A DNA stretch of 64,000 nucleotides, taken from assembly GCA_014138725.1 (NCBI GenBank), contig JACJID010000008.1:248001-312000 (forward strand). The letters are read 5' to 3'. Position numbers and translations under genes: made by a program. Position 1 is the stretch's first letter. Each line of letters starts with the position of its first letter. The notes beneath the pieces were generated by a model. That model searched no databases. It saw only the letters and a program-made list of their open reading frames with translations, and was not told where the DNA came from. Source of the stretch: Kutzneria viridogrisea. GTDB taxonomy: Bacteria > Actinomycetota > Actinomycetes > Mycobacteriales > Pseudonocardiaceae. Of this stretch, positions 30,854-50,805 are shown piece after piece.

Positions 30854-32272
30854 TCAGCGACGCAGCGTCGCCGGGGCACCAAACCACTGGCGCAGAACCG
30901 CTTCGAGGTCACGCGGGCCGCCGTCGACCCACACCACGTGACCGTCCGGCCGCAGCAGCACCGCCCCCGCGTCGAGCTCCTCGCCGCACTCGGCCACCAC
31001 GTCCACCCGGTCCGCCCAGCCCGGCACCGACAGCCCCCGCCCGGTCTGGTCCAGCAGCAGCCCGCGCCCGGTGCGCAGCAGGTCGTAGAGCCGCCCCGAC
31101 TTTAGCCCGACATCGCGCATCCGCTTGCCCAGCAGCGGATGCGCGCCCTCGCCGACCTCGTAGCGGATGTCCACCGCGCTGATCATCCCGGTGAGGTACC
31201 GGCAGGTGTCCTCCTGGTCGAGCAGCTCGGACAGGAAGTCGCGCAGGGACTCCGAGCGCATCAACTGGCCCTGCACCCGGGTGTTCTCCAGCACCCGGGC
31301 GCCCACCGGGTGCCGCTCCGAGTGGTAGGTGTCCAGCAGGCCCTCCGGGGCCCAGCCGTTGACCTGCGCGGCCAGCTTCCAGCCCAGGTTGAACGCGTCC
31401 TGCAGGCCCAGGTTCAGCCCCTGACCACCGGCGGGCAGGTGGATGTGCGCCGCGTCCCCGGCCAGCAGCACCCGGCCGACCCGGTACCGCCGCGCCTGCC
31501 TGCTGGCGTTGCCGAAGCGCGAGATCCAGCGCGGCGAGTGCGCACCGAAGTCGGTGCCCGCGACCTCGCGCAGCCGCTGCTTGATCTCCGCCAGGGTCGG
31601 CGGCACGCTGCGGTCGGCGGCCACCTCCGCGGCGTTCACCGTCACCCGGTACAGCCCGTCGCCCAGGTGGAAGCAGCCCAGCACCCCGTTGGGCCGGATG
31701 CTGAACGGGGCCTCGCCGGGGGACTCGGTCAGCTCCACGTCGGCCAGCACCATGTCCATCTGGGACGGCGTGCCGGGGAAGTCCACACCGAGCAGCCCGC
31801 GCACCGTGCTGCGCCCGCCGTCGCAGCCCACCACGTAGCTCGCACGCAACTGCTGCCCGTCGGCCAGCTCCACGGTGACGCCCTGCTCGTCCTGGCTCAG
31901 CCCGGTCACGGCGCTGCCCCGGCGGATCTCCGCGCCCAGCTCCAGCGCGCGCTCGGTGAGCAAGCGCTCGGTCGTCGCCTGCGGGGTGCCCAGCGCGAAC
32001 GGGTGGGCGGTGTCCAGCAGGTCGTAGCGCAGCTTGAACACGCCGGCGAAGTGGCCGCCCAACCCCCTGCGCGGGCTGGACTCCACGAAACGGTCCAGCA
32101 GCCCGCGCTGCGCGAGCACCTCCACGCTGCGCACGTGCAGCCCCAGCGCCCTGGACTGCCCGCTGGGCTCGGCCAGCCGCTCCAGCACCACCGTGCGCAC
32201 CCCGGCCAGCCGCAGCTCGCAGGCCAGCATCATGCCGGTCGGACCCCCGCCGACGACCACGACGTCGATCAT
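30854..32272 (-). CDS. Class A flavin monooxygenase, rifampicin monooxygenase (Rox)-like
   Basis: A 472-residue FAD-dependent aromatic hydroxylase. The N-terminal FAD motif is IDVVVVGGGPTGMMLACELRL, the middle DG motif is YVVGCDGGRSTVRGLLGV, and the GD motif is VLLAGDAAHIHLPAGGQGLNLGLQDA. Length and segments such as SRALGLHVRSVEVLAQRGLL and GTDFGAHSPRWISRFG closely resemble Rox enzymes that inactivate rifampicin, as I recall them. The inner ATG at 32272 has a GGGGG site; an ATG four codons earlier lacks one. The divergent TetR regulator with three shared operators suggests induction by an aromatic compound. Confidence 0.82.
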   Translation of the reverse strand: MIDVVVVGGGPTGMMLACELRLAGVRTVVLERLAEPSGQSRALGLHVRSVEVLAQRGLLDRFVESSPRRGLGGHFAGVFKLRYDLLDTAHPFALGTPQATTERLLTERALELGAEIRRGSAVTGLSQDEQGVTVELADGQQLRASYVVGCDGGRSTVRGLLGVDFPGTPSQMDMVLADVELTESPGEAPFSIRPNGVLGCFHLGDGLYRVTVNAAEVAADRSVPPTLAEIKQRLREVAGTDFGAHSPRWISRFGNASRQARRYRVGRVLLAGDAAHIHLPAGGQGLNLGLQDAFNLGWKLAAQVNGWAPEGLLDTYHSERHPVGARVLENTRVQGQLMRSESLRDFLSELLDQEDTCRYLTGMISAVDIRYEVGEGAHPLLGKRMRDVGLKSGRLYDLLRTGRGLLLDQTGRGLSVPGWADRVDVVAECGEELDAGAVLLRPDGHVVWVDGGPRDLEAVLRQWFGAPATLRR

Positions 32273-32282
32273 CAGAACCCCC

Positions 32283-32335
32283 ATGCTTAACGTCGTTAAA
32301 TTTAACGTCGTTAAGCATGGATCTAACGACGTTAA
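32283..32335. promoter_or_regulatory. Three TetR operators in the divergent promoter
   Basis: TTAACGTCGTTAA is a 13-bp palindrome present at 32287-32299 and 32302-32314, with a one-mismatch-type copy (CTAACGACGTTAA) at 32323-32335. The first two make up a larger 36-bp near-palindrome, 32283-32318. The sites fill the 73-bp gap between the two start codons and so would block both promoters. Confidence 0.82.
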
Positions 32336-32345
32336 GCTGTCAACC

Positions 32346-32969
32346 ATGAAACTCAGCAGGGAGGCCGTGATCCGGGCCGCGCTGGAGCTGCTCGACGAGG
32401 TCGGGCTGGACGGGCTGACCCTGCGCGGGATCGCGACCCGGCTGGGCGTGCAGGCGCCCGCGCTGTACTGGCACGTCAAGAACAAGCGCGAGCTGATCGA
32501 CGAGATGGCCACCGCGATCCTGCATGAGGCGCTGTCCGGGATGCCGCTTGCCAGCGAGCACGAGTCCTGGGCCGACTGGCTGGCCGAACTGGCCCGCGGC
32601 TACCGGGCGATGACCCTGCGGTACCGCGACGGGGGCCGGGTGCTGTCCGGGGCACACACCCCGGCGCCAGAGCTGTACCGGATGCTGGAGACGGTGCTGC
32701 GCGTGCTGACCGAGGCCGGGTTCTCGGCGCGGGAGGGGCTGCGCGCGATCACCACGCTGATCAGTTTCGTGTCCGGGTTCGTGATCGAGGAGCAGGCCCT
32801 GCAAGCCATCGCGGAGCGCAGGCTGGCCGAGGACCGCCCCGACCCGCTGCTGTTCCCACTGCTGAGCAGTGGGAACAGCAGTACGCTGGACAGCTCGATC
32901 AGCGACGAGACCTTCGAGTACGGGCTCAAGCTGCTGCTGGACGGGATGCGGGTCGCCCGGCTCAGCTGA
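32346..32969 (+). CDS. TetR family repressor
   Basis: A 207-residue TetR protein. The N-terminal helix-turn-helix is LTLRGIATRLGVQAPALYWHVKNKRELI, the classic TetR-class recognition region (with an unusually Tet-like YWHVKNK). The C-terminal ligand-binding part has the TetR_C pattern (FVSGFVIEEQALQ). The ATG at 32346 is preceded by the triple operator. It almost certainly controls the Rox-like monooxygenase and itself. It ends 8 bp inside the convergent ApbE-like gene. Confidence 0.88.
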   Translation: MKLSREAVIRAALELLDEVGLDGLTLRGIATRLGVQAPALYWHVKNKRELIDEMATAILHEALSGMPLASEHESWADWLAELARGYRAMTLRYRDGGRVLSGAHTPAPELYRMLETVLRVLTEAGFSAREGLRAITTLISFVSGFVIEEQALQAIAERRLAEDRPDPLLFPLLSSGNSSTLDSSISDETFEYGLKLLLDGMRVARLS

Positions 32970-33666
32970 CCTCGACCACGATCAGCTCGTCCAGTGCGGC
33001 CGAGCGGTGCACCACGTGCTCGGCGTCCACCGCGAACACCAGGCAGCCCGGCTGCGAGTCGGCCCAGGACACCCCGTCCGGGCCCAGTGCGTAGGCCGCC
33101 GCGGCCACCACCCCGGCCGTGATCAGGTCCGCCGCCACCACGCTGACCGCGAGCAGCCCGCCACCCGGGCCCCGTTCGACGGGCACGCGCGTGGCCACCG
33201 CCAGGTCGCGCACCCCCAGCACCGCGCACACCCGGTCAGCCAGCTCGGGGTGCCGGATGCCCACCACCCACGGCCTGCCCGGTTCCGGCTCGCCCACGGC
33301 CAGCACGTCCCCGCCCGCGTTCAGGCAGAAGTTCGCCGAGCCCCCGGCCCGCAGCCGGTCGGCCGCCCGCCGCACCGCCCAGCCCAGCGCCGCCGGGCCG
33401 GGGTCCAGCCGCCCGCCGGGCGTGCGCGCGCTGAACGCGCCACCGGTGAGCCGCTCGTAGTAGGCGCAGATGCCCAGCACCTCGGCCAGGTCCACGGGCA
33501 GTTCCGCCAGCTCGCCCCGCTCCAGGCGGCACACCTGGCTGTCGGCCAGCCCTGGGTTGAACCGCCGGTCCAGTTCGGCCAGGCAGTCGTAGGCCCCGTC
33601 GGCGGGCACCCCGTCGCGGACCTCGATCGACACCGGTCGTCCCAGCAGCTGCTCGACTCTGCTCAT
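32962..33666 (-). CDS. ApbE-like FAD:protein FMN transferase, short form
   Basis: A 234-residue protein resembling ApbE flavin transferases, which attach FMN to a Thr of target proteins. It has LDRRFNPGLADSQVCRL near the start, FCLNAGGDVLAVG in the middle and a late ADLITAGVVAAAAYALG. It is shorter than usual (about 300 or more) and lacks an export signal. The typical metal-binding region is only weakly visible. The ATG at 33666 is clear. Flavinylation of a partner is possible; a target protein is not apparent nearby. Confidence 0.65.
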   Translation of the reverse strand: MSRVEQLLGRPVSIEVRDGVPADGAYDCLAELDRRFNPGLADSQVCRLERGELAELPVDLAEVLGICAYYERLTGGAFSARTPGGRLDPGPAALGWAVRRAADRLRAGGSANFCLNAGGDVLAVGEPEPGRPWVVGIRHPELADRVCAVLGVRDLAVATRVPVERGPGGGLLAVSVVAADLITAGVVAAAAYALGPDGVSWADSQPGCLVFAVDAEHVVHRSAALDELIVVEVS

Positions 33667-39229: not shown

Positions 39230-39736
39230 ATGACCGACTACGGGGACGCTCCGATCACCGTGCAGTCCGGTCGGCTGTGGGCAGGTGCCGCGGCGACAGC
39301 GCTGGTGGCCGGGCTGATCTCGATCGTGGGCATCCTGATCGGCCGGGGCCTCGTGCACGCGGAGGTGCTCGCCCCCAAGGGCGACGGGGTGTGGGGCGGG
39401 GCGAACACCGTGACCTACGCCATCGTCTCCGCCGCGATCGCGTTGCTGGCCGCGGGGCTGCTGCACCTGTTGCTGCTGACCACGCCGAGAGCGACCACCT
39501 TCTTCACCTGGATCATGGTGCTGCTCACGCTGATCGCCGTGGTGCTGCCGCTGAGCCTGCCGGTGAACTGGGACAGCAAGATCACCACGGGTCTGATCAA
39601 CCTGGTGATCGGGCTGGTGATCACGGGGATCCTGACCGGGCTGGCGCCCAGCGCGGTCAGGATGACCCCGCCTCCCCCGCACCGCCCCCGGGAGGACTAC
39701 GACGAGACCGTGGAGTGGCCCGACCGCAGGCGCTGA
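39230..39736 (+). CDS. DUF6069 family four-helix membrane protein
   Basis: A 168-residue protein with four hydrophobic helices (about residues 17-38, 62-84, 90-112, 120-143) and a Pro-rich, acidic C-terminal tail. The arrangement fits the DUF6069 family, found widely in actinobacteria with no known function. The ATG at 39230 has a GGAAGGA site. The final 40 bp overlap the convergent TPR gene. Confidence 0.72.
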   Translation: MTDYGDAPITVQSGRLWAGAAATALVAGLISIVGILIGRGLVHAEVLAPKGDGVWGGANTVTYAIVSAAIALLAAGLLHLLLLTTPRATTFFTWIMVLLTLIAVVLPLSLPVNWDSKITTGLINLVIGLVITGILTGLAPSAVRMTPPPPHRPREDYDETVEWPDRRR

Positions 39737-41757
39737 TCGGCCAGGCAGGCGGCCCGCTGCCCGCGCAGCTCCGCCTCGTCGGCGCCGGGCAGTTCCAGTG
39801 CCGCGTCGAAGTCGCGCAGCGCCAGCTCCACCTGACCGCTGGCGCGCAGCGCGACCCCGCGGTTGAACAGCACGTCCGGGTCCGCGCCGACCTGTTCCAG
39901 GGTCCTGGTCAGGTCCTCGACGGCGTGCTCCAACCGTCCCGCGTCGAAGTGCACGGCGGCCCGGTTCACCAGCGCGGCCGGGTAGTCCGGGTCGGCCGCC
40001 AGCGCCGCGTCCAGCGCGCGCAGTGCCCGCTCGGGCTCCCCGCGCTCCAGCGCGATGGTGCCCGCCATGCACAGCAGCCTCGGTTCCCCTGGCAGCAGCG
40101 CCAGCCCGGCCAGCACGTCGGCCTCCGCCTCGTCCACCCTGTCCAGCCCCAGCAACAGGTCCGCGCGGGTGATCCGGGTGTCCACCTCGTCGGGTTCCAT
40201 CTCCAGCACGTAGTCCAGGTCCGCCAGCGCGCCCCCGGTGTCACCGACCTCGATGCGGGCGGTGGCCCGGTTGTAGTACAGCTCCGGGAAGGGCGGGGCA
40301 AGCCGCACGGCGTGGTCGTAGTCGGCCAGCGCGGCGGCGAAGTCCCCGCGCTTGCGGGAGACCTTGGCCCGCTCGGACAGGTAGTCGGTGTAGTACGGGT
40401 CCAGGCCCACCAGCGTGGTGTAGTCCGCGTACGCCTCGTCCAGCCGGCCCGTGGCCAGCAGCAGCCGCGCGCGGTTGTAGAGCAGCTGCGAGCGGTGCAG
40501 CACCCACTGGTCGGGGTCCAGTTCCCGGTCCAGGCGGTCGATCCCGGTGTTGATCAGCTCCAGCGCGCGGCCCAGGTTGCCCCGGTGCATCTCGATCAGC
40601 GCGAGGGCGTTGTTCTGGAAGCCGGTGAACACCAGGCGTTCCCGCTCGTCGGGCAGCAGGCTGGCGATGGCCAGCGCGTTGTTCTGCCACTCCAACGCCT
40701 TCTCGTGGTCGCGCGGGGTGAAGAACCTGGTGTACAGCATGGCGATCGCGTAGCTGGTGGTCATGTGCACGCGCGGCAACGGGTAGCGGTGCCGCAGGTC
40801 CTCGTACAGGCGCAGCGAGCCCTCCAGGTCACCCAGCGGCACCAGCGCGGCAGCGGCCTGGCAGGTGAACTCGCAGTACACACGTTGCTGTGCAACAGGA
40901 TCAGTGACCGCACGCCCGCGCATGCCCAGATCCGCGATGGCCGCCGAGAAGCCCACCTCCACACAGAACTGCAGGGCTCGCGCCAGTGCCTCCCGCCCCG
41001 CACCACCCGGGTCGGTGCCGCGCTCCCGGTGGTAGGTGATCGCGCCGACCTTCGTGCCCCAGCTCGATCCCGGTTCCAGCTCGTCCGCGCGCCGATCGTG
41101 TTGTGCCGCGACAAGTGCCGGGTCGGCAGCCCGGTAGGCGGCGAGCTCGGCCGGGTCCTCGCTCGTGCCGTCCGAGGCGATGTAGGCGGCCACCAGCTCC
41201 GCACTACTCCGATCGTCCACAGTGGACTCACTGGGCTCGGCCCGCACCGTGCGCAGGCCGTCCACGGACAACTCGGCACCGGACACGACCACCCGCAACC
41301 GGGCGGGATCCGCGCGGCGCACCAGGATCGTGACGAGTTCGCGGGTGGTCGGCTCCGCCTCGTGCAGGTCCTCGAACACCAGGCTCATCGGCCGGTGCTC
41401 GGCCAGCCGCAGCAGGAAGGTCACCACCCCCTGGCTCATGCAGCGGATCATGCCGGAGCCGAAGAACCGGGTCCGCTCGGTGAACGGGGAGTCGGCGGCC
41501 AGCGTGCTCGGCGCGGGCCCGATGATCTCGGCGAGTTCGGGCATGCCGTAGAGCAGCTCCACGCGATGCTGCTCGACCAGGTCGGGGTGCTCGGCGGCGG
41601 CCTCTCCCAGCAGCGCGGCCAGCACCTCGTCCACCCCGGTGTAGGGCCCGCGCAGCCGACGGTGACAGCGCCCGACGGCGGTGTGCGGCCCCTCCTGGGC
41701 CCAGCGGCGCTCGCGGTCGGCGCGGCGGTTCCCGACGATCACCAGGTGCTCACTCAT
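39697..41757 (-). CDS. Large TPR protein with degenerate AAA-like N-terminus, in peptide/M50 cassette
   Basis: A 686-residue protein. Residues about 1-240 resemble the ATPase core of LuxR/AAA-16-type proteins (RRLRGPYTGVDEVLAALLGEA; a Walker B-like MSLVFEDLHEAEPTTRELV) but carry no Walker A motif. Residues about 270-680 are TPR repeats (LRLYEDLRHRYPLP; AYADYTTLVGLDPYYTDYL; AADPDYPAALVNRAAVHFDAG). The ATG lies 2 nt after the M50 stop, so the two are coupled. TPR arrays can bind peptides, as in RRNPP sensors; that role is an inference here. Confidence 0.72.
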   Translation of the reverse strand: MSEHLVIVGNRRADRERRWAQEGPHTAVGRCHRRLRGPYTGVDEVLAALLGEAAAEHPDLVEQHRVELLYGMPELAEIIGPAPSTLAADSPFTERTRFFGSGMIRCMSQGVVTFLLRLAEHRPMSLVFEDLHEAEPTTRELVTILVRRADPARLRVVVSGAELSVDGLRTVRAEPSESTVDDRSSAELVAAYIASDGTSEDPAELAAYRAADPALVAAQHDRRADELEPGSSWGTKVGAITYHRERGTDPGGAGREALARALQFCVEVGFSAAIADLGMRGRAVTDPVAQQRVYCEFTCQAAAALVPLGDLEGSLRLYEDLRHRYPLPRVHMTTSYAIAMLYTRFFTPRDHEKALEWQNNALAIASLLPDERERLVFTGFQNNALALIEMHRGNLGRALELINTGIDRLDRELDPDQWVLHRSQLLYNRARLLLATGRLDEAYADYTTLVGLDPYYTDYLSERAKVSRKRGDFAAALADYDHAVRLAPPFPELYYNRATARIEVGDTGGALADLDYVLEMEPDEVDTRITRADLLLGLDRVDEAEADVLAGLALLPGEPRLLCMAGTIALERGEPERALRALDAALAADPDYPAALVNRAAVHFDAGRLEHAVEDLTRTLEQVGADPDVLFNRGVALRASGQVELALRDFDAALELPGADEAELRGQRAACLADQRLRSGHSTVSS

Positions 41758-41759
41758 GA

Positions 41760-42929
41760 TCAGGTCATCTCCCGGATCGGGGCGCGGCGCTTGCGCCGGG
41801 ACAGGTGGGCCAGCAGGGCGAGCTGACCGAGGTTGACCAGCAGGGACACCGCGCCGTCCCAGAAGGCGGCGTCCACCCTGCCGGAGACCAGCCGCCCGCC
41901 GATGGTGGTGGCGTACTCGACGACCACCGGCACGCTGGCGAACACGGCGATGCCCAGCGCGGTGGTCACGCCGAGCACCAGGAACGGCCCGTACCAGCGG
42001 CCGACCCTGCGGTCGTGCTCGGTCCACGCGCTCTCGTCGACGAGCTTGTCCGCACGACCGAGCAGGCCCCAGAAAGCGTTGCGCAGCAAGGCTTTGCTCG
42101 CCTCGTGCAGGGAGTAGCAGTTGAAGGCGGTGGCGAACACGTAGTAGAGATCGGTGCGCAGGAACAGCTGGAACTGCCAGGCGAAGCGCATCACCACGGT
42201 GAAGCCCATGGCCAGCGCGAGCCGACCGGCCAGCGAGAGGGACCCGTCCGCTTCGCGGGTGGCCGCGGCGAGCAGGTCCAGGCAGGCCAGCACGAGCAGG
42301 TCGCACAGCATGCCCGCCAGGAAGGGCAGGTACCGCTTGGCGCGCGGCACGCTGAGCACCCCGTTGAGCTTGGTCTCGAACACGATGTAGGCCAGCCGGT
42401 TGCTCATGCCCAGCTGGCTGGTCAGGCCCAGCCGCTGCCCGGCGAGCACGTGGAAGCCCTCGTGCAGGAACAGCAGCGGCACCTGGCCGAAGGTGATCAC
42501 GAGCTGCACCACGATCACCGAGGAGGTGAAGAAGATCTGCCCCGGCGCGGGCAGCAGGTCGGGTTGCCCGGCGAGCACCACCAGCCAGGCGGCGAGCAGC
42601 ACCGCGAAGCACACCCACGCGGCCGGGGAGAACAGCGCGCGGCCCAGCCAGCGCCAGCGCAGCGCGCCCGCGGTGCTGTCGGCGGCCTCCCCCTCGTGCC
42701 GCACGAACCCGAGCTCGTCCAGGGTCTCCAGGAACTCCTCGACGTCGACGGGTTCACCGTAGGTGTCCTCGTACCAGCGGGCCGCGTGGTCGGGGGCCAT
42801 GCCCTCGGCCATCCTGCCCAGCAACGCGGCGCCGTCCGCGGGCAGCACCGCGTAGGAACCGGTGCCCATCCGGCCGACAACCACCTCGTCCCCCTCGGGC
42901 ACGAAGCTGAGCTGGTGGAACGAGACCAT
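41760..42929 (-). CDS. M50-family membrane zinc protease with PqqD-like N-terminal domain
   Basis: A 389-residue protein. Residues about 10-78 look like a PqqD/RRE-type winged helix (LPADGAALLGRMAEG; EFLETLDELGFVR), a fold that binds precursor-peptide leaders. Several transmembrane helices follow. The zinc site HEGFH is at residues 156-160 inside a hydrophobic segment, and a likely third ligand Asp is at about 210 (AGMLCDLLVL). This resembles the YydH-type peptide metalloproteases of RiPP clusters. It sits 68 bp after a 36-codon peptide gene. The ATG has a GAGGGAGGG site. Confidence 0.83.
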   Translation of the reverse strand: MVSFHQLSFVPEGDEVVVGRMGTGSYAVLPADGAALLGRMAEGMAPDHAARWYEDTYGEPVDVEEFLETLDELGFVRHEGEAADSTAGALRWRWLGRALFSPAAWVCFAVLLAAWLVVLAGQPDLLPAPGQIFFTSSVIVVQLVITFGQVPLLFLHEGFHVLAGQRLGLTSQLGMSNRLAYIVFETKLNGVLSVPRAKRYLPFLAGMLCDLLVLACLDLLAAATREADGSLSLAGRLALAMGFTVVMRFAWQFQLFLRTDLYYVFATAFNCYSLHEASKALLRNAFWGLLGRADKLVDESAWTEHDRRVGRWYGPFLVLGVTTALGIAVFASVPVVVEYATTIGGRLVSGRVDAAFWDGAVSLLVNLGQLALLAHLSRRKRRAPIREMT

Positions 42930-42949
42930 GGCCGCCCTCCCTCACGGGA

Positions 42950-42979
42950 CCCGCGTGCGCCGGAGTGGGCGCACGCGGG
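42950..42979 (-). terminator. Intergenic hairpin (attenuator) between peptide gene and M50 gene
   Basis: CCCGCGTGCGCC at 42950-42961 pairs perfectly with 42968-42979 across a 6-nt loop. It stands between the peptide stop and the M50 ribosome-binding site. Such hairpins commonly let a precursor transcript exceed that of its processing genes. Confidence 0.75.
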
Positions 42980-42997
42980 CCGGTGTCATGCCGTGTG

Positions 42998-43108
42998 TCA
43001 GGCGTTGACCACGTGGTACGGGCACTGGCAGGCGGCCGAGGTCAGGCGGACGTCGCCCGCACGGCGCACGGTGATCTTCTTCATCTTGGTCGTCGTCTTG
43101 AGCTTCAT
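42998..43108 (-). CDS. Putative 36-residue precursor or signal peptide
   Basis: The ATG at 43106-43108 follows a good GGAGGA ribosome-binding site and opens a 36-codon frame ended by TGA at 42998. The first part, MKLKTTTKMKKITVRR, is strongly basic and Thr-rich, like a leader. The last 15 residues, LTSAACQCPYHVVNA, hold a Cys-x-Cys, Pro-Tyr-His core. It is followed by a hairpin and then an M50 protease with a leader-binding-like domain. I do not recognise the peptide family. It may be a RiPP precursor, a pheromone or, less likely, a small metal-binding protein. Confidence 0.68.
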   Translation of the reverse strand: MKLKTTTKMKKITVRRAGDVRLTSAACQCPYHVVNA

Positions 43109-43378
43109 CCGATCCTCCAGGGTTCGAACACCGACGGCATTCACTTTCGCCGCTGACGGATTTCTATCAGCCGCAAACCGGTCGAATGGCGTTCACGACC
43201 ACTTTCAGAACACCGTGAGAACAACGCAGCGTGCCCACTCGGTCACCGAACAGAACTGGGTCGATTCGCGAACGCGGACGTAACTCTTTCGGAGGATGCG
43301 TTGACGGGGTCCCGTGTCGAACACTCTGTCGTCCGACGAGAGAACACACTGGTCAGCGTCGGTTCGAAGGGGCAGGAC
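43109..43378. promoter_or_regulatory. Divergent regulatory region with repeated GAACAC words
   Basis: This 270-bp gap between the peptide gene and the XRE gene is markedly less GC-rich than the window. GAACAC occurs in the same orientation at 43126, 43208, 43319 and 43342. GGTTCGAA occurs at 43121-43128 and 43361-43368, each just upstream of one of the two starts. These are the best operator candidates; promoter hexamers are not clear. No additional ORF is convincing. Confidence 0.5.
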
Positions 43379-43777
43379 ATGAGGGAAACTGGGGCAGCGG
43401 CGATCCGTCTCGGCGCCGAGTTGCGCAGGCTCCGCCTGGAGCGGGGACTCTCCCTGCGGGCGATGGCCAAGCGGGTGGGAATGAGTGCGCACAGCGGACT
43501 GGTTGACTACGAACGGGGGAATCGCATTCCTCCGCACGACCTGCTGACCAGTTATCTGAGAGAACTGAGACCGACCGATCAGAAATTGGTGTCACTACAC
43601 CGCTTGGCAATGTCAGAACGGGCAGACCTGCGGGTCGGAATAGCTCCGGAACCGCCCGTGTCGCCCATTGTCGTGTCCCCGGCACCGCCGAGGGTGCTGC
43701 GGGTGACCGCCACCGTGCTGGGCCACGTGGCCAGGACCCTGCAGGGCGTGGCCGAGCGCATCACCCGGCTGCCCTGA
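43379..43777 (+). CDS. XRE family regulator divergent from the peptide cassette
   Basis: A 132-residue protein with an N-terminal XRE helix-turn-helix (LGAELRRLRLERGLSLRAMAK, then GLVDYERGNRIPP) and a C-terminal tail with an amphipathic helix (LGHVARTLQGVAERITRL). The ATG at 43379 has an AAGGGG site. Many codons are AT-ended or rare for this genome (AGA, ATA, CTA, AAA), unlike its neighbours. Position and orientation suggest it controls the peptide-M50-TPR operon. Its 3' end overlaps the convergent GNAT gene by 17 bp. Confidence 0.82.
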   Translation: MRETGAAAIRLGAELRRLRLERGLSLRAMAKRVGMSAHSGLVDYERGNRIPPHDLLTSYLRELRPTDQKLVSLHRLAMSERADLRVGIAPEPPVSPIVVSPAPPRVLRVTATVLGHVARTLQGVAERITRLP

Positions 43778-44304: not shown

Positions 44305-45567
44305 TCAGCGCCCGCTGCCCGCGTACACCACCGCCTGCTCGCTGCCGCCGAGCTGGAAGGCGTCGTGCAGGGCGCGCACCGCGTCGGACACCTGGAAGTC
44401 CTTGCACAGCACCGAGATCCGGATCTCCGAGGTGCACATGATCTCGATGTTGATGCCGACCGAGCTCAGCGCCTCGCAGAAGGTGGCCGCCACCCCGGGT
44501 TGAGCGCGCATTCCCGCACCGACCAGCGAGACCTTGCCGACGTGCTCCTCGTACAGCACGTCCCGCAGGCTCAGCTCGCCCCGCCTGGCCAGCAGCGCGG
44601 CCACCGCGGCCGGACCGTCCTGTTCGGACACCGTGAAGGTCAGGTCGGTGCGGCCGGGCTGGGTGCACACGTTCTGCACCACCACGTCCAGCTCGATCTG
44701 CTGGTCGGCGAGTACCCGGAAGACCGCCGAGGCGAAGCCGGGGCGATCGGGCAGGCCCGCCACCACGACCTTCGCCACCGACCTGTCGTGCGCGACACCG
44801 GTGATCAACGCCTGTTCCACGGTCTGCTCCTCCACTGAGCCGAACACCGTCGTGCCCTGCTCGCCGCCGTAGGCCGAGCGCACGTGCAGCGGCACCCCGT
44901 TGCGCCGCGCGTACTCCACGCAGCGCGACATGAGCACCTTCGCCCCGCTGGCGGCGAGTTCGAGCATCTCCTCGTAGCTGAGCCGGTCCAGCCGCCGCGC
45001 GTTGGGCACGATGCGCGGGTCGGCGGTGAGCACCCCGTCCACGTCGGTGTAGATCTCGCAGACATCGGCCTTGAGCGCCGCGGCCAGCGCCACCGCCGTG
45101 GCGTCGGAACCACCGCGCCCCAACGTGGTCACGTCCCCGGTGGGCAGGTGCACGCCCTGGAACCCGGCGACGAGCACCACCGCGCCCCTGGCGAGTTCCT
45201 CGCGGACCCGCCTCGGCCGGACCTCGGTGATCCGGGCCCGGCCGTGCGCCCCGGTGGTGATCATCCCCGCCTGGTCCCCGGACAGCGAGCACGCCCGCAG
45301 GCCCAGGTCCTCCAGTGCCATCGCCAGCAGCGAGTTGGACACCCGCTCGCCGGAGCTGAGCAGCATGTCCAGCTCGCGGGCCAGTGGCTCGGCGGCCACC
45401 CGCCCCGCCAGTTCGAGCAGGTCGTCGGTGGTGTCGCCCATAGCCGAGACGACCACCACCACCTCGTGCCCCGCTCGCCGGGTGTCGGCCACCCGCCGGG
45501 CCACGGCGCGGATCCGCTCCGTGCTGTCCACTGAGGAGCCGCCGTACTTCTGCACGACCAGCGCCAT
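44305..45567 (-). CDS. ask: Aspartate kinase
   Basis: A 420-residue aspartokinase. The N-terminal [16 protein letters not shown] and [16 protein letters not shown] are catalytic-domain signatures. Two C-terminal ACT domains are present ([36 protein letters not shown]), so feedback control by lysine or threonine is expected. It follows the aminotransferase by 1 nt. In this operon it would supply aspartyl phosphate for aspartate semialdehyde, the precursor of 2,4-diaminobutyrate. It may be a second, pathway-specific copy; the semialdehyde dehydrogenase is not in the window. Confidence 0.93.
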
Positions 45568-45568
45568 G

Positions 45569-46915
45569 TCAGCAGCCTTCCTTGATGGCCTCGACCAGGA
45601 TGGCGCAGGCCTTGTCGACCACCTCGGCGGTGACGTTGAGTGGGGGCAGCAGGCGCACCACGCTGTCCTGCCTGCCTCCCAGCTCCACGATCAGCCCCTT
45701 GCGCAGCGCGCGGGTCTGCACGGCCCTGGCGAACTCCCCCGCGGGCCGCCCGTCCACCGGATCGGCCAGCTCGATGCCCCACATCAGGCCGATCCCGCGC
45801 ACCTCGCGCACCCACGGGTGATCGGCCAGCGCACCCAGCCGGGCCGCCACCTGCGAGCCCCGCCGGTCCACGTTGCCCAGCACGTCGTCCCGGCGCACCA
45901 CGCGGATCGCCTCGACCCCGGCCGCGAAGGCCAGCTGGTTGCCGCGGAACGTGCCCGTGTGCGCCCCAGGCGCCCAGCTGTCCAGCTCACGGTCGTACAT
46001 GATCATCGCCACCGGGGAGCCGATCCCGCTCAGCGCCTTGGAGGCCACGATGACGTCCGGTTCGATGCCGTAGCGCTGGAAGGCGAACCAGGTGCCGGTG
46101 CGGCCGCAGCCGGTCTGCACCTCGTCCACGATCAGCGGGATCTCCAGCAGCCGGGTCAGCTCCCGCACCCGGCGCACGAACTCCGGTACCGCCGGGATCA
46201 CCCCGCCCTCGCCCTGCACCATCTCCATGATCACCGCGGCCGGGCGGGGCAGCCCGCTGTTGCCGTCGGTCAGCGAACGCTCCAGGAAGGACACGCAGTT
46301 GGTCAGGCAGCTGTCCTGGCTCAGCCCCACCGGGCAGCGCGTGCAGTACGAGTACGGGAAGAAGTGGATACCCGGCACCCCGTTGGCGACCGGTTGCTTC
46401 TGCGCGACGAGCCCGGTCAGCGCCATGGCGGCGTGCGTGCTGCCGTGGAAGCCGCCCTGGAAGGCGATCACCTCGCCGCGGCCGGTGGCCGTCTTGCACA
46501 GCTTCACCGCGGCGTCCACGGCATTGGCCCCGGTCGGCCCGCACAGGTGCACCTTCATCCTGTCCCGCAGCGCGGGGTCGAGCATGGACAGTTGGGCCTG
46601 CACGAACTCCTGCTTGGCCGGGGTCGGGAAGTCCAGCGCGTGGGTGAGCCTGCCCAGCTGGTCGGTCATGGCCCGGACCAGCTCGGGGTGGTTGTGGCCC
46701 AGCGAGAGCACGCCCGCGCCGGACAGGAAGTCGATGAACACGTTGCCGTCGACGTCGCGCACGAAGCTGCCGGACGCGTCGGCGATGGCGATGGGCAGGT
46801 GGCGGGGGTAGGTGCGGGCGTTGGACTCGACCTGGGCCTGTCGGCTGAGGTACTCAGCCGAGCGCGGGCCTGGCAGGTCTCCCTCCACGTCCGGACCAGT
46901 CAGCAACGGGGTCAT
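45569..46915 (-). CDS. dat: Diaminobutyrate-2-oxoglutarate aminotransferase
   Basis: A 448-residue class III PLP aminotransferase. It has [11 protein letters not shown], the PLP-binding Asp in [14 protein letters not shown], the Schiff-base Lys in [10 protein letters not shown] and the Cys-rich YCTRCPVG loop typical of DABA aminotransferases. It converts aspartate semialdehyde and glutamate to L-2,4-diaminobutyrate. The ATG overlaps the synthetase stop (ATGA). No ectoine acetyltransferase or synthase is nearby, so the product is probably fed to the polymer synthetase. Confidence 0.88.
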
Positions 46916-49900
46916 CACGACCTTCTCGGTTCGGTGGTTGTCTGGGTGCGGGCGGGAATGCCGCGCCAGCGGGTGTGTTCGGGCAGGGTTTCGCCCTTCA
47001 TCACCAGGGACATCGCGTCCAGGCTGGCGCCTTCGCCGACGACCGCGTCGTAGAGCACGACCGAGCGCACGCCGACCGAGGCACCGTCGCCGATGCGGAC
47101 GCGGGACATCTTCATCACGCGGTCCTCGAACAGGTGGGTCTGCAGGGAGGTGAACTCGCCGACCGCGGTGTCGTCGCCCACCTCGACGAGGTCGAACTCG
47201 GTCAGGAAAGTGGTGGACAGCCAGGTGCGGCGGCCGATCTTCGCCCCGAACAGGCGCAGGACCGGTGCTGCGAAAGGAGATCCGGTCAGCATCGCCAGGA
47301 AGCCGGGCACGACGAGGTTCTCGTACAGCCCGGTGATCAGCTCGGTGCGGCGGACCCAGATGCTCCACAGGGCCTCGGTCCTCGGCCGGTAGCGGCCGAT
47401 CACCACCCACTTGAGCAGGGCCACGATCAGGGTGGACGCCAGGCCGATGCCGAGCACCAGCGCGGGGCTGACCGCCGCCACGGCCCACGCGGGCCAGGAC
47501 CTGGCCAGCTGCACCGCCGTGTAGTAGCCAGCCAGCACGGTCAGGCTGGCGATCGTGCCGGGCAGCGTCACCCGGAAGTACTCGATCAGCAGCCGCGCGA
47601 CGATCAACCACTTCGTCGGCTGGAAGGTGAGCCGGTCCGGGAAGATCTGGCTCGGCTGCCGGGTGGGCAGGAAGATCGCCGGGGAGCCGAGCCAGGTGGT
47701 CTCGGGCTCCACCGGCTTGGCCGGTGCCACGGAGTGCACGCCGAGCAGGCTGTTGTCGCCCAGCTTGGCCGCGCCGGGCACCAGCGCGCCGTTGCCGACG
47801 AAGGTGCGCCTGCCCACCTCGGCCGGGGACAGCGCGACGCAGCCGCGGTGGAACACCGCCGGGCCGACCACCGCGATGTCGGCCACGAAGCTGCGCTCGC
47901 CGATGATCAGCATGTCCGGGTCCACGAAGTTGACCGTGGCCACCTCGGACCAGCGCCCGGTGCGGGCGCCCAGTGCGCGCAGGAACGGCACCAGGTAGAG
48001 CGTGGAGTACAGCGCGTGCGTCACGCTCAGGCTCGTGGCCATCATGCCGTCACTGATCCACTTGCGGACGCCGAACCCGCTGCGCTCCTGGTGGATCCCC
48101 GGCCTCGGGCCCGGCATGACCGCGCGCTTGACCAGGACCACCAGCACGCAGGTAGTGAACGGCACCAGCGGGCCGCCGACCAGGGTGAGGATCATGCCGT
48201 TGAGCAGCCCGTGGTGGTGGGTGGTCAACGCGACCACGAGCACGGTGGGCACCGCGATCAGCACCGGCATCAGCATGAACAGCACGGCACCGGCCAGGTA
48301 GCCGAGCAGCACCAGCACGGGCCAGCGCCGGCCCTGGGCGCTGGCGGCCATGGCCGCCAGCAGCGGGGGCGCCGCGGGTTGGCGTGTCGCTGGCGAACCC
48401 GACCAGTGCTCGCCGTCCGGGATCACCTGGTCCGCCGCGACCAGCGACTGGTCGCCGACCGAGGCGTCCGCGCCGATCTCCGCACCCGGCAGCACCACGC
48501 AGTTCGTACCCAGGTAGCTGCCCGCGCCCAGGCGGATCGGCGCCAGCCGCAGCCAGCCCGCCTCCACCTGGTAGGGCTGCACCCGCGCGCCGTAGCCGAT
48601 GCTCACGCCCGCACCGATGTTCACCAGCGCGGGCAGGCCGACCACGGAGGACATGTGGCAGTCCCGGCCGATCCGCGCACCCATCAGCCGCAGGTAGGGC
48701 GCCAGCAGCGGAGATCCGGCCAACAGCGGCAGCGGTGCGATCCCGACAACCTTGCCGTACAACCAGAAGCGCAGGTATGTCAGTCCCCACAACGGGTAGC
48801 GGCCCGGTTTGAGCCCGGTCATGAGCAGTCGGCCGCCCACGATCGGCAGCAGCAGGTAGGAGGCCGCGAGCCAGCCGAGCGCGGGCAGGATCGCGCTGTT
48901 GTCGTACAGGAAGAGCACAAGAGGCATGCCCAGCAACAGGATCCAGCCGTAGAGCAGCACCAGCTGCGCCGCCCCGCAGAGCGCCACGCGCAGGCTGGAG
49001 TGCTTGAGCGCGGGCTCGGCCTCGACCTCCGTGGCGGGCTCGCTGGCCTCGATGAACGCCGCGAGGGCGCGGATCGTGGAGTGCGCGTACAGGTCGCCCA
49101 TGGCAACACCACGCAGCTCAGGTTCCTTGCGCAGCCTGGACATCAGCTGTGCGGCACTCATGGAGTGCCCGCCCAGGTCGCAGAAGAAGTCCTCGTCGAT
49201 GGAGATGTCCGTGCCGCCCAACACCTCCGACCAGAGCTCCGCCAGCTTGCACTGCACGGGGCCGGTCGGGGGCACCAGTGGTGCGGCACTGCGCCCCAGC
49301 GGGGGTGAGCTGGGCGCGGGCAGTGCCGACCGGTCCACCTTGTCCGCCGCCAGCAAGGGGAACTCCGCAAGCACTTCCACGAAGGCAGGGATCATGTACG
49401 TGGGCAGCCTGCGCCGCAGCACCGCGAGCAGCCGCTCGCGCAACCGCTCGTCCTGTTTCCCGCGCAGGGTCACGTAGCCGACCAGGTCGGTCACCACCCC
49501 GTCGCGTTCCAGGGTGGTCACGACAGCGTTTTCCACCGCGGGCTCCTCCCGCAGCACCTGTTCGATCTCGGCCAGCTCGATCCGGTAGCCGCGCACCTTG
49601 ACCTGCGTGTCGATCCGGCCCAGGTACTCGATCTCGCCGTCCGGGGTGTACCGCCCGAGGTCCCCGGTCCGGTAGACCCTCGGCGCGTGCTCCCGGTCGG
49701 CCAGCACGGGGTTGGGCACGAAGCGCTGCGCGGTGAGCCCGGGCCGGTTCACGTAGCCGATCGCCACGCCCGGTCCGCCCACGCAGATCTCCCCGGGTTG
49801 GCCCTCCGGCACCGGCCGCAGCTGCTCGTCCAGCACGTACACCCGGTACGAGGGCAGCGGGGTGCCGATCGTCACCGGCCGGTCCGGGCTCAGCTCCCCG

Positions 49901-50805
49901 CAGGTCGCGGTCACGGTGGACTCGGTGGGCCCGTAGGCGTTGAGGATGCGTCTGCCGGGTCTTGACCAGCGGCGGACCAGGTCCTGCGGGCAGGCCTCCC
50001 CGCTGACCAGCAGGCTGCGCAGGGTGGGCAGCTCGGCGTCGATCGTGGTGAGCAGGGTCGGCACGCAGCACAGGAAGGTGATGTCCTGCTCCGCGAGGAA
50101 TTCGGACAACCCGGCACCAACCCGGCGGTCGTCGCCCGGCCCGGTCACCAGCGTGGCGCCGGCCAGCCAGGCGGGCCAGATCTCCTCCACGGAGAAGTCG
50201 AAGGCGATGGACAAACCCTGGTAGACCCGGTCCTCCGCCCGCACCTGGTAGATCGGGGTCACCACGTCCAGGAAGTTCACGATGCTGGCGTGCGAGACCG
50301 CGACGCCCTTCGGTTTTCCCGTGGTACCCGATGTGTAGATGACATAACACAACTGCTCGGGCTCGAGGTATACCTGTGGACGCTCGTCCGACATACCGAC
50401 GACAGATGTACCGTCTATTTCCAGCAACGGGCAGGGCAGATGGCCCACAGCACCGCTGGTACCGGAAGTCGTGACCAACTGGCACAACCCCGCATCCTGG
50501 GCAATGAACTCCAGTCGATCTGCCGGAAAGGACGAGTCCAGCGGAACATATGCCGCACCCGATTTCAGCACACCGAGCAGCGCGATGTAGGTGTCGATCG
50601 AGCGTTCCACCAGGATACCGACCGCATCACCCTCGGACACGCCGCGCGAGCGCAGCAGGTGAGCAAGCCGGTTGGCGGCCCGGTCCAGCTCTCGATAGCT
50701 CAGTTCAACGTTTCCGCAGGCCACAGCAATGGCCTCCGGATGTCGATCACAGGCCCTTTCGAAGCACTGCGGTAGCGACCGCACGGCTGTCTGCACAGCA
50801 ACCAC
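46915..50805 (-). CDS. Pls-type homopoly-amino-acid synthetase (probable poly-diaminobutyrate synthetase)
   Basis: A 1296-residue membrane NRPS. Residues about 1-500 are an adenylation domain ([11 protein letters not shown] at 157-167; Lys489 in [10 protein letters not shown]). A carrier domain follows with the pantetheine Ser548 in DLGGHS. From about 605 to the end, transmembrane helices alternate with left-handed-beta-helix-like soluble segments, the pattern of epsilon-poly-lysine synthetase (about 1319 residues) and of the 'NRPS terminal domain' family. The enzyme would link one amino acid into an isopeptide homopolymer. Neighbouring DABA aminotransferase and aspartokinase genes point to diaminobutyrate. 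The GTG start has a GGAGGGG site. Codons in the first 150 residues are unusually AT-rich. Confidence 0.86.

Follow-up and report, generated by a model that had tools for sequence, protein, structure and literature searches.

A small leader peptide gene, a membrane M50 protease and a tetratricopeptide repeat protein form a probable operon for a ribosomally synthesized and post-translationally modified peptide in Kutzneria viridogrisea

A 64,000-nucleotide stretch of the Kutzneria viridogrisea genome (assembly GCA_014138725.1, contig JACJID010000008.1, positions 248,001 to 312,000; hereafter “the window”) carries on its minus strand a run of three genes that encode a 36-residue peptide (MKLKTTTKMKKITVRRAGDVRLTSAACQCPYHVVNA; 42998..43108), a 389-residue membrane M50 (site-2-type) metalloprotease (41760..42929) and a 686-residue tetratricopeptide repeat (TPR) protein (39697..41757). 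We consider it probable that these genes, which we infer to lie on a single transcript, constitute a biosynthetic operon for a ribosomally synthesized and post-translationally modified peptide (RiPP), with a conserved basic leader, a variable core that holds cysteine and tyrosine, a protease fused to a RiPP recognition element (RRE) and a TPR protein as partner. The genomic features by which RiPP loci are recognized are present: the leader is conserved, the core varies, the precursor gene lies beside enzyme genes, and an RRE is indicated by predicted fold and by profile match.

The small frame evolves as a protein-coding gene. In the window it comprises an ATG, 36 codons and a stop, with a GGAGG box five bases (ATCGG) before the ATG, and the peptide matches nothing in Pfam or NCBIfam at E≤1. 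Its homologues were sought in 200 genomes of the host’s family, in searches that took only part of each genome’s first-look candidates through to scoring, such that counts are not exhaustive. A peptide-first search, made with a profile of 20 peptides, gave 23 matches at E≤1.1e-9 (the next stood at E=1e-3), and all 23 lie directly upstream of the 23 M50 genes of ≥40% identity in these genomes, each with a TPR gene. Relatives of the M50 protein occur in 33 of the 200 genomes (E≤0.001). Among the first 30 loci fetched, a peptide of the same design precedes the M50 gene in 21/21 loci with ≥40% M50 identity; at two further places of that identity the upstream peptide was located by hand.

The full collection comprises 103 loci (92 distinct), i.e., the window, 80 loci from genome contigs (the best 80 of 153 relatives) and 22 further stretches; several of the 103 run off the end of their contig. 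The peptide is present in 91 of the 92 distinct loci. Scores from a position-specific scoring matrix (PSSM) upstream of the M50 gene range from 24.4 to 42.3 in 102 of the 103 TPR-linked loci and reach at most 6.8 in 570 other windows, a comparison less clean than the peptide-first search, as the matrix was seeded with 17 of the found peptides. Selection acts on the encoded residues: 13 loci of the window’s CxCPY subgroup, compared in 78 pairs over 24 codons counted from the motif (L069 left out as its peptide duplicates that of L066), give a ratio of nonsynonymous to synonymous change (pN/pS) of 0.195 for the leader and 0.516 for the core, and nucleotide differences at codon positions 3/1/2 number 622/305/182. 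An earlier reading of the window from its letters alone (the “sequence-only reading”) had proposed this frame, with its ribosome-binding site, as an unannotated gene at the head of a minus-strand gene run, and had named a lack of conservation or of coding selection as grounds for dropping it. The frame is both conserved and selected, and the proposal is confirmed.

Within the precursor, a conserved and a variable part can be told apart. The family leader follows the consensus MKKIx[VI]R[KR]xGx[VI][RK]LT (in short, KKIxVRKxGxVRLT), represented in the window by MKKITVRRAGDVRLT (43040..43084, minus strand), a putative RRE-binding stretch. Column counts over 76 distinct peptides show R7 and L14 kept in all 76, T15 in 75 and G10 in 74. 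Past RLT follows a variable region of 10–22 residues, the predicted core, which in the window is SAACQCPYHVVNA (43001..43039, minus strand) and holds a Cys/Tyr pair. Both Cys and Tyr occur, once or more each, in 76/76 distinct cores, with the first Tyr 4–8 residues past the leader Thr; the chance per 13-residue stretch at called-protein frequencies is 0.117 for Cys and 0.261 for Tyr, to be read with the caution that related peptides are not independent and 76 cores are not 76 trials. Beyond the leader the PSSM took in no more than the three core positions next to it, so Cys and Tyr further along the core were not preselected. The order of the two residues is free, with Cys solely before Tyr in 33/76 cores and solely after it in 28/76. 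The leader’s shape (hydrophobic-x3-Gly-x-hydrophobic-...-Thr) recalls, we assume, that of lasso peptide leaders. A lipoprotein signal (LTAAAC) was also considered for the peptide and dropped, as no hydrophobic stretch is present.

The cysteine counts bear on a different view of the same peptide, namely that it is an unmodified Cys-rich metal- or thiol-binding peptide freed by the protease. Cores with 4–6 Cys, those of Nocardia loci among them, would suit such a function, and they make up 6 of the 76; a single Cys in 41/76 cores, a Tyr that is equally constant, and the company that precursors ending in Cys keep with a decarboxylase-like flavoprotein (below) speak against it, and we regard this explanation as very unlikely.

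For the window’s protease, Pfam and NCBIfam match neither an M50 nor a PqqD-like domain at E≤1, and its assignment therefore draws on motifs, models and profile searches. It carries HExxH at H156, E157 and H160 and TDxY at residues 259–262; across the family, HExxH is found in 67/67 members and TDxY in 64/67. A model from 67 sequences (mean predicted local distance difference test score, pLDDT, 93.8) has three strands and three helices at its N-terminus, followed by long helices that fit membrane spans. Searched with Foldseek against the PDB, the N-terminus finds as top matches leader-bound TbiB1, the lasso B1 protein 6jx3, McbBCD chains and other RRE-bearing enzymes, at probabilities of 0.98–1.00 but with E≥0.045. 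The family profile, run against PDB sequences, matches solely TbiB1 (E 0.0088) and TfuB1 (E 0.029) at E≤1. By fold and profile match, then, the N-terminal domain (residues ~1–82, bbb-aaa; 42684..42929, minus strand) models as an RRE nearest to the lasso B1 proteins. The sequence-only reading had described a membrane M50 protease with an apparent PqqD-like leader-binding domain and the peptide as its substrate. Motifs, fold model, Foldseek and profile uphold the first part, Pfam and NCBIfam do not; the leader-binding fold, the tight linkage and the leader/core architecture make it very likely that the M50 protein has the peptide as its substrate.

Linkage of the protease to the TPR protein is tight as well. 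In 99/99 loci where gene calling found the two, duplicates counted, the TPR gene lies directly behind the M50 gene at a median distance of 12 nt, and in the four loci that remain (L081, L083, L097 and L136) it was detected by tblastn. In the window it begins 2 nt past the M50 stop, as the sequence-only reading had it. A model from 59 sequences (pLDDT 96.4) comprises an alpha/beta, ATPase-like domain (~1–180) and then a long TPR superhelix; a PDB search with this model found generic TPR proteins (O-GlcNAc transferase etc.), which is uninformative on function. Pfam gives the first domain a weak AAA_16 match and one member of the family a BTAD match below cut-off, and GxxxxGK[ST] is found within the first 80 residues in 0/59 members; the protein therefore looks like a relative of STAND-type ATPases that has lost its P-loop and nucleotide binding. 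Many polar positions in it hardly vary. The pairwise identities of the TPR proteins correlate with those of the M50 proteins over 52 loci (Spearman 0.72), a value that kinship alone could explain. Two TPR proteins were considered as counterparts and rejected: that of cacaoidin is a BTAD regulator (PMC8068269), and that of biphenomycin accompanies radical SAM and MNIO genes (PMC12707348).

A TPR superhelix and a membrane protease within one gene run would also suit RRNPP-like peptide signalling, and the sequence-only reading, with such systems in view, had cast the TPR protein as receptor or partner of the peptide. In signalling of this kind the M50-freed peptide would be exported and re-imported, and the TPR protein would sense it and control neighbouring XRE or SARP-type regulators. 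Regulators are indeed nearby. Families of the SARP type (BTAD in the two members run) lie within 5–6 genes of the M50 gene in 34/92 distinct loci, and an XRE-type gene stands divergent from the precursor in the window (43379..43777, plus strand). The divergent position agrees with the sequence-only reading; for its start we propose ATG 43379 as likelier than the TTG at 43301 with which the listed frame begins. However, XRE relatives are confined to a few close relatives, being divergent upstream of the precursor in 4/102 other loci (L031, L063, L064 and L072); in L110 a relative lies elsewhere in the locus. Genes were called with our own codon-score script, which missed the XRE genes of the window and of L063, and because of this all neighbour counts are lower bounds. 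Moreover, Pfam finds no DNA-binding domain or helix-turn-helix in the window TPR protein or in its L045 homologue, the core varies strongly between loci, and a conserved leader, an RRE and flavin-enzyme partners fit biosynthesis. The receptor role is unsupported, and signalling seems to us quite unlikely.

The flavin enzymes that favor a biosynthetic RiPP operon recur in parts of the family. A flavin reductase (PF01613, by Pfam on one member) occurs in 44/92 distinct loci, which rules it out as a universal partner; it lies directly behind the TPR gene in 43/99 called loci and overlaps or touches it in 25 of the 43. An Old Yellow Enzyme (PF00724, likewise from one member) is present in 7/92. 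A PF02441 flavoprotein of the Cys-decarboxylase superfamily (Pfam on two members) adjoins the precursor on the opposite strand in six distinct loci, and the precursor ends in Cys in 6/6 of these vs. 3/85 distinct peptide loci without the gene. One member matches the NCBIfam CypD model at E 1.6e-5, below cut-off, and CoaBC models score better. More than any other observation, this association suggests that some enzyme besides the protease also acts on the peptide. For the three remaining Cys-ending precursors (L093, L103 and L111), a search with a profile of the known decarboxylase genes found none; the 205-aa neighbor in L093 and L103 (called shorter in L111) resembles a membrane protein. The genome of the window has six PF01613 and two PF02441 matches, none of them on the window’s contig. 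At 30857–33666 an ApbE-like gene and an FAD-type aromatic hydroxylase gene cluster with a TetR regulator gene; the first two are 8 and 10 called genes past the TPR gene.

Several observations weigh against a RiPP operon as we describe it. No core-modifying enzyme of known kind is common to every locus, and no flavin enzyme adjoins the window locus; for these two reasons core modification in the window is an assumption. Transporters do not recur widely either, transporter-like families (named by eye) being found within 5–6 genes of the M50 gene in three or four distinct loci each. The decarboxylase association (Fisher p ~1e-7) is uncorrected for relatedness, and the three Cys-ending precursors just named have no decarboxylase-like gene in their loci. 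L123 has no recognizable leader motif, its only frame being one that ends HRLTTACYYSCSQA. A plasmid locus of Streptomyces sp. NBC_01450 (L199, outside the 76 peptides) has M50 and TPR genes amid transposase genes, with a precursor that contains neither Cys nor Tyr, and this plasmid setting and altered precursor suggest transfer, possibly decay. Finally, the 200 genomes contain eight TPR homologues (L161–L168) that lack an adjoining M50 gene. Directly upstream of three of them (L163, L165 and L166) are clear, diverged precursor-like frames with scores of 16–22; frames at L164 and L167 are weak (6.8 and 4.4, no better than null), and the other three loci have no precursor-like frame upstream. 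Each of the five frames is missing either Cys or Tyr. We read these M50-less loci as decaying systems, though they could be of another type.

A constant Tyr is also typical of the precursors of redox cofactors, and the Old Yellow Enzyme of seven loci might likewise belong to cofactor chemistry, as would be the case if the peptide were a carrier (pearlin/PQQ-like) that bears its product, either one altered amino acid or a small cofactor derived from Cys/Tyr, until the M50 protein cuts it off. There is precedent in the M50 proteases TglG and TmoG, which free C-terminal amino acids from scaffold peptides (PMC10885120). Against this, Cys and Tyr here occupy variable internal places in the core and no fixed C-terminus, and no LanB-like peptide aminoacyl-tRNA ligase is found among the 17 genes called between 30 and 54 kb of the window (searched with Pfam, called genes only). 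On balance the carrier role is unlikely.

The spacer between precursor and M50 gene adds a further recurrent feature. Folding of 81 of the 91 distinct spacers (those of 45–180 nt; the 10 outside this range were left out) gives a hairpin with median z −2.97, 78% lying below −2, vs. a median of −0.49 and 17% for 120 control gaps from the same loci. In the window this is a stem-loop of 13 pairs (42949..42980, minus strand; z ~ −2) that may act as a partial terminator or attenuator between the precursor stop and the M50 start. Hairpins behind precursor genes often raise the precursor’s share of transcript. A stem-loop directly behind the frame in most loci would equally suit a translation-sensing attenuator for the M50 and TPR genes, in which the peptide itself has no function; this we hold to be extremely unlikely, given that the amino-acid sequence of the leader is selected (pN/pS 0.195), that the next gene encodes an RRE, that L081 and L102 have two precursor genes each, and that decarboxylase genes go with C-terminal Cys.

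For the RiPP operon that we favor, the following course may be proposed. The small gene would yield a precursor with its conserved basic leader and short variable Cys/Tyr core, and the leader would be bound by the RRE of the membrane M50 protein, to which it probably adds a beta strand. With the leader still in place, the core would be altered in the constant company of the TPR protein (either a scaffold or a new kind of enzyme), and in some lineages flavin mononucleotide (FMN)-type enzymes (i.e., flavin reductase, Old Yellow Enzyme, Cys decarboxylase) would join in. The M50 site would then remove the leader at the membrane, perhaps with release of the product to the outside. Binding and cutting are proposed because of fold and motif, and the core step because of linkage and the Cys/Tyr rule.

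More distant M50 relatives (25–36% identity) accompany other partners. In eight loci (L055–L062) a ThiF/E1-like protein (from clustering, with PF00899 on one member) is encoded directly upstream of the M50 gene, and 6 of the 7 loci examined have a frame of 18–26 residues before the ThiF/E1-like gene, e.g., MTIEVRKVESVKATGNDA; examples lie at L057:8578–8634 and L060:6245–6301, both on the plus strand. These loci may represent another undescribed short-peptide pathway. A Streptomyces plasmid (L200) carries this pair, annotated “ThiF family adenylyltransferase” and “hypothetical protein.” In L053 and L054, a polyketide synthase with ketosynthase, Beta_elim_lyase and thioesterase-like parts (Pfam on L053, which led us to reject a nonribosomal peptide synthetase, NRPS, for this large protein) is accompanied by LnmK-like, HMG-CoA-synthase-like and hydrolase genes (L053:78–11016, with an equivalent set in L054), which we take to be a leinamycin-type set. 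Directly downstream of it come a small frame with KKLTVRKLESVKASASVVCGSQPA or a near copy (a VRK leader and one Cys) and an RRE-M50-type gene. VRK is kept in 6/8 sister small peptides, the other two having IRK or VKK; protease and leader motif therefore look like a module that serves several chemistries. A bolder proposal goes further: the TPR protein would be the core-modifying catalyst, or a flavin-assisted scaffold, of a new RiPP class, joining or oxidizing the constant Cys and Tyr of each core, and the RRE-M50 protein would have been recruited at least three times (with TPR, with ThiF/E1-like and with leinamycin-type polyketide synthase partners). We offer this tentatively, as a possibility that we doubt.

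The peptide-M50-TPR system is of low and patchy prevalence. The genera represented among the 80 contig loci include Streptomyces, Kitasatospora, Streptosporangium, Lentzea, Nocardia, Saccharothrix, Kutzneria and one Ktedonobacter; the last (L097, Ktedonobacter robiniae) carries the set outside Actinomycetota. A sample of 396 genomes of the phylum contains an M50 relative at E≤1e-30 in four, the window’s genome counted; of the three others, a single one attains 40% identity. Elsewhere in the window, an aspartokinase, a class III aminotransferase and a single-module NRPS-like protein (AMP-binding, PP-binding, hexapeptide repeats) are encoded at 44305–50805 on the minus strand; the last resembles poly-amino-acid synthetases, and the group may be a poly-diaminobutyrate-type cluster.

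A RiPP family that in its minimal form has no recognizable core-modifying enzyme would escape enzyme-based mining, and its precursor is short enough for gene finders to miss. The strict Cys/Tyr rule directly predicts the site of chemistry, and a TPR pseudo-ATPase as maturation partner, if true, would add a novel type of component to RiPP pathways.

Daptides are among the closest known systems. Their RRE-fused intramembrane site-2 protease MpaP (PMC10036551) adds to the precedent that the sequence-only reading had drawn from yyd-type loci, which held for M50 proteases with small precursors. Both systems have an RRE N-terminal to a membrane site-2/M50 leader protease, short precursors and actinobacterial hosts. 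Daptide precursors bear an ELExMEAP motif and an invariant C-terminal Thr, and their loci encode a pyridoxal phosphate (PLP) aminotransferase, an alcohol dehydrogenase, a methyltransferase and ABC transporters (PMC10036551). Unlike these, the present family has the KKIxVRKxGxVRLT leader, the Cys/Tyr core, the TPR partner and no widely recurring transporter. Its 76 distinct precursors do not show the ELExMEAP motif with C-terminal Thr (that of the window ends in Ala), and the 17 called genes include a zinc-type but no Fe-type (PF00465) dehydrogenase and no methyltransferase; their single class III aminotransferase adjoins the NRPS-like gene.

Lasso peptides have in TbiB1 and TfuB1 the nearest relatives of the RRE, but the protease here is a membrane M50 protein, and neither a lasso cyclase nor a transglutaminase-like protease is found among the 17 genes. 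In epipeptides (Yyd/Epe) and pearlins a membrane M50 protease likewise matures a small precursor (PMC10885120); the TPR partner sets the present system apart, and a radical SAM epimerase, as in epipeptides, is as absent from the 17 genes as the pearlin ligase, nor do these genes include LanM or YcaO. The six loci with a PF02441 flavoprotein and a Cys-ending precursor resemble linaridin, lanthipeptide and thioamitide systems with their CypD/EpiD-type Cys decarboxylases, whereas the window has no decarboxylase gene, a precursor ending in Ala and, among its 17 called genes, none of the other enzymes of those pathways. STAND-type AfsR-like regulators share the TPR array and the weak AAA_16 match, but the TPR protein has neither GxxxxGK[ST] (59/59) nor a helix-turn-helix. 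The peptide-M50-TPR set, the TPR partner and the Cys/Tyr core are undescribed in the literature searched, and the decRiPPter, RRE-Finder and daptide supplements may list the family. The sequence-only reading had found no match to a known RiPP class, and that view stands against daptides, lasso peptides, epipeptides and pearlins, such that our best reading is of a RiPP family outside the classes compared—one that shares its RRE-fused membrane protease with daptides and its nearest RRE relatives with lasso peptides.

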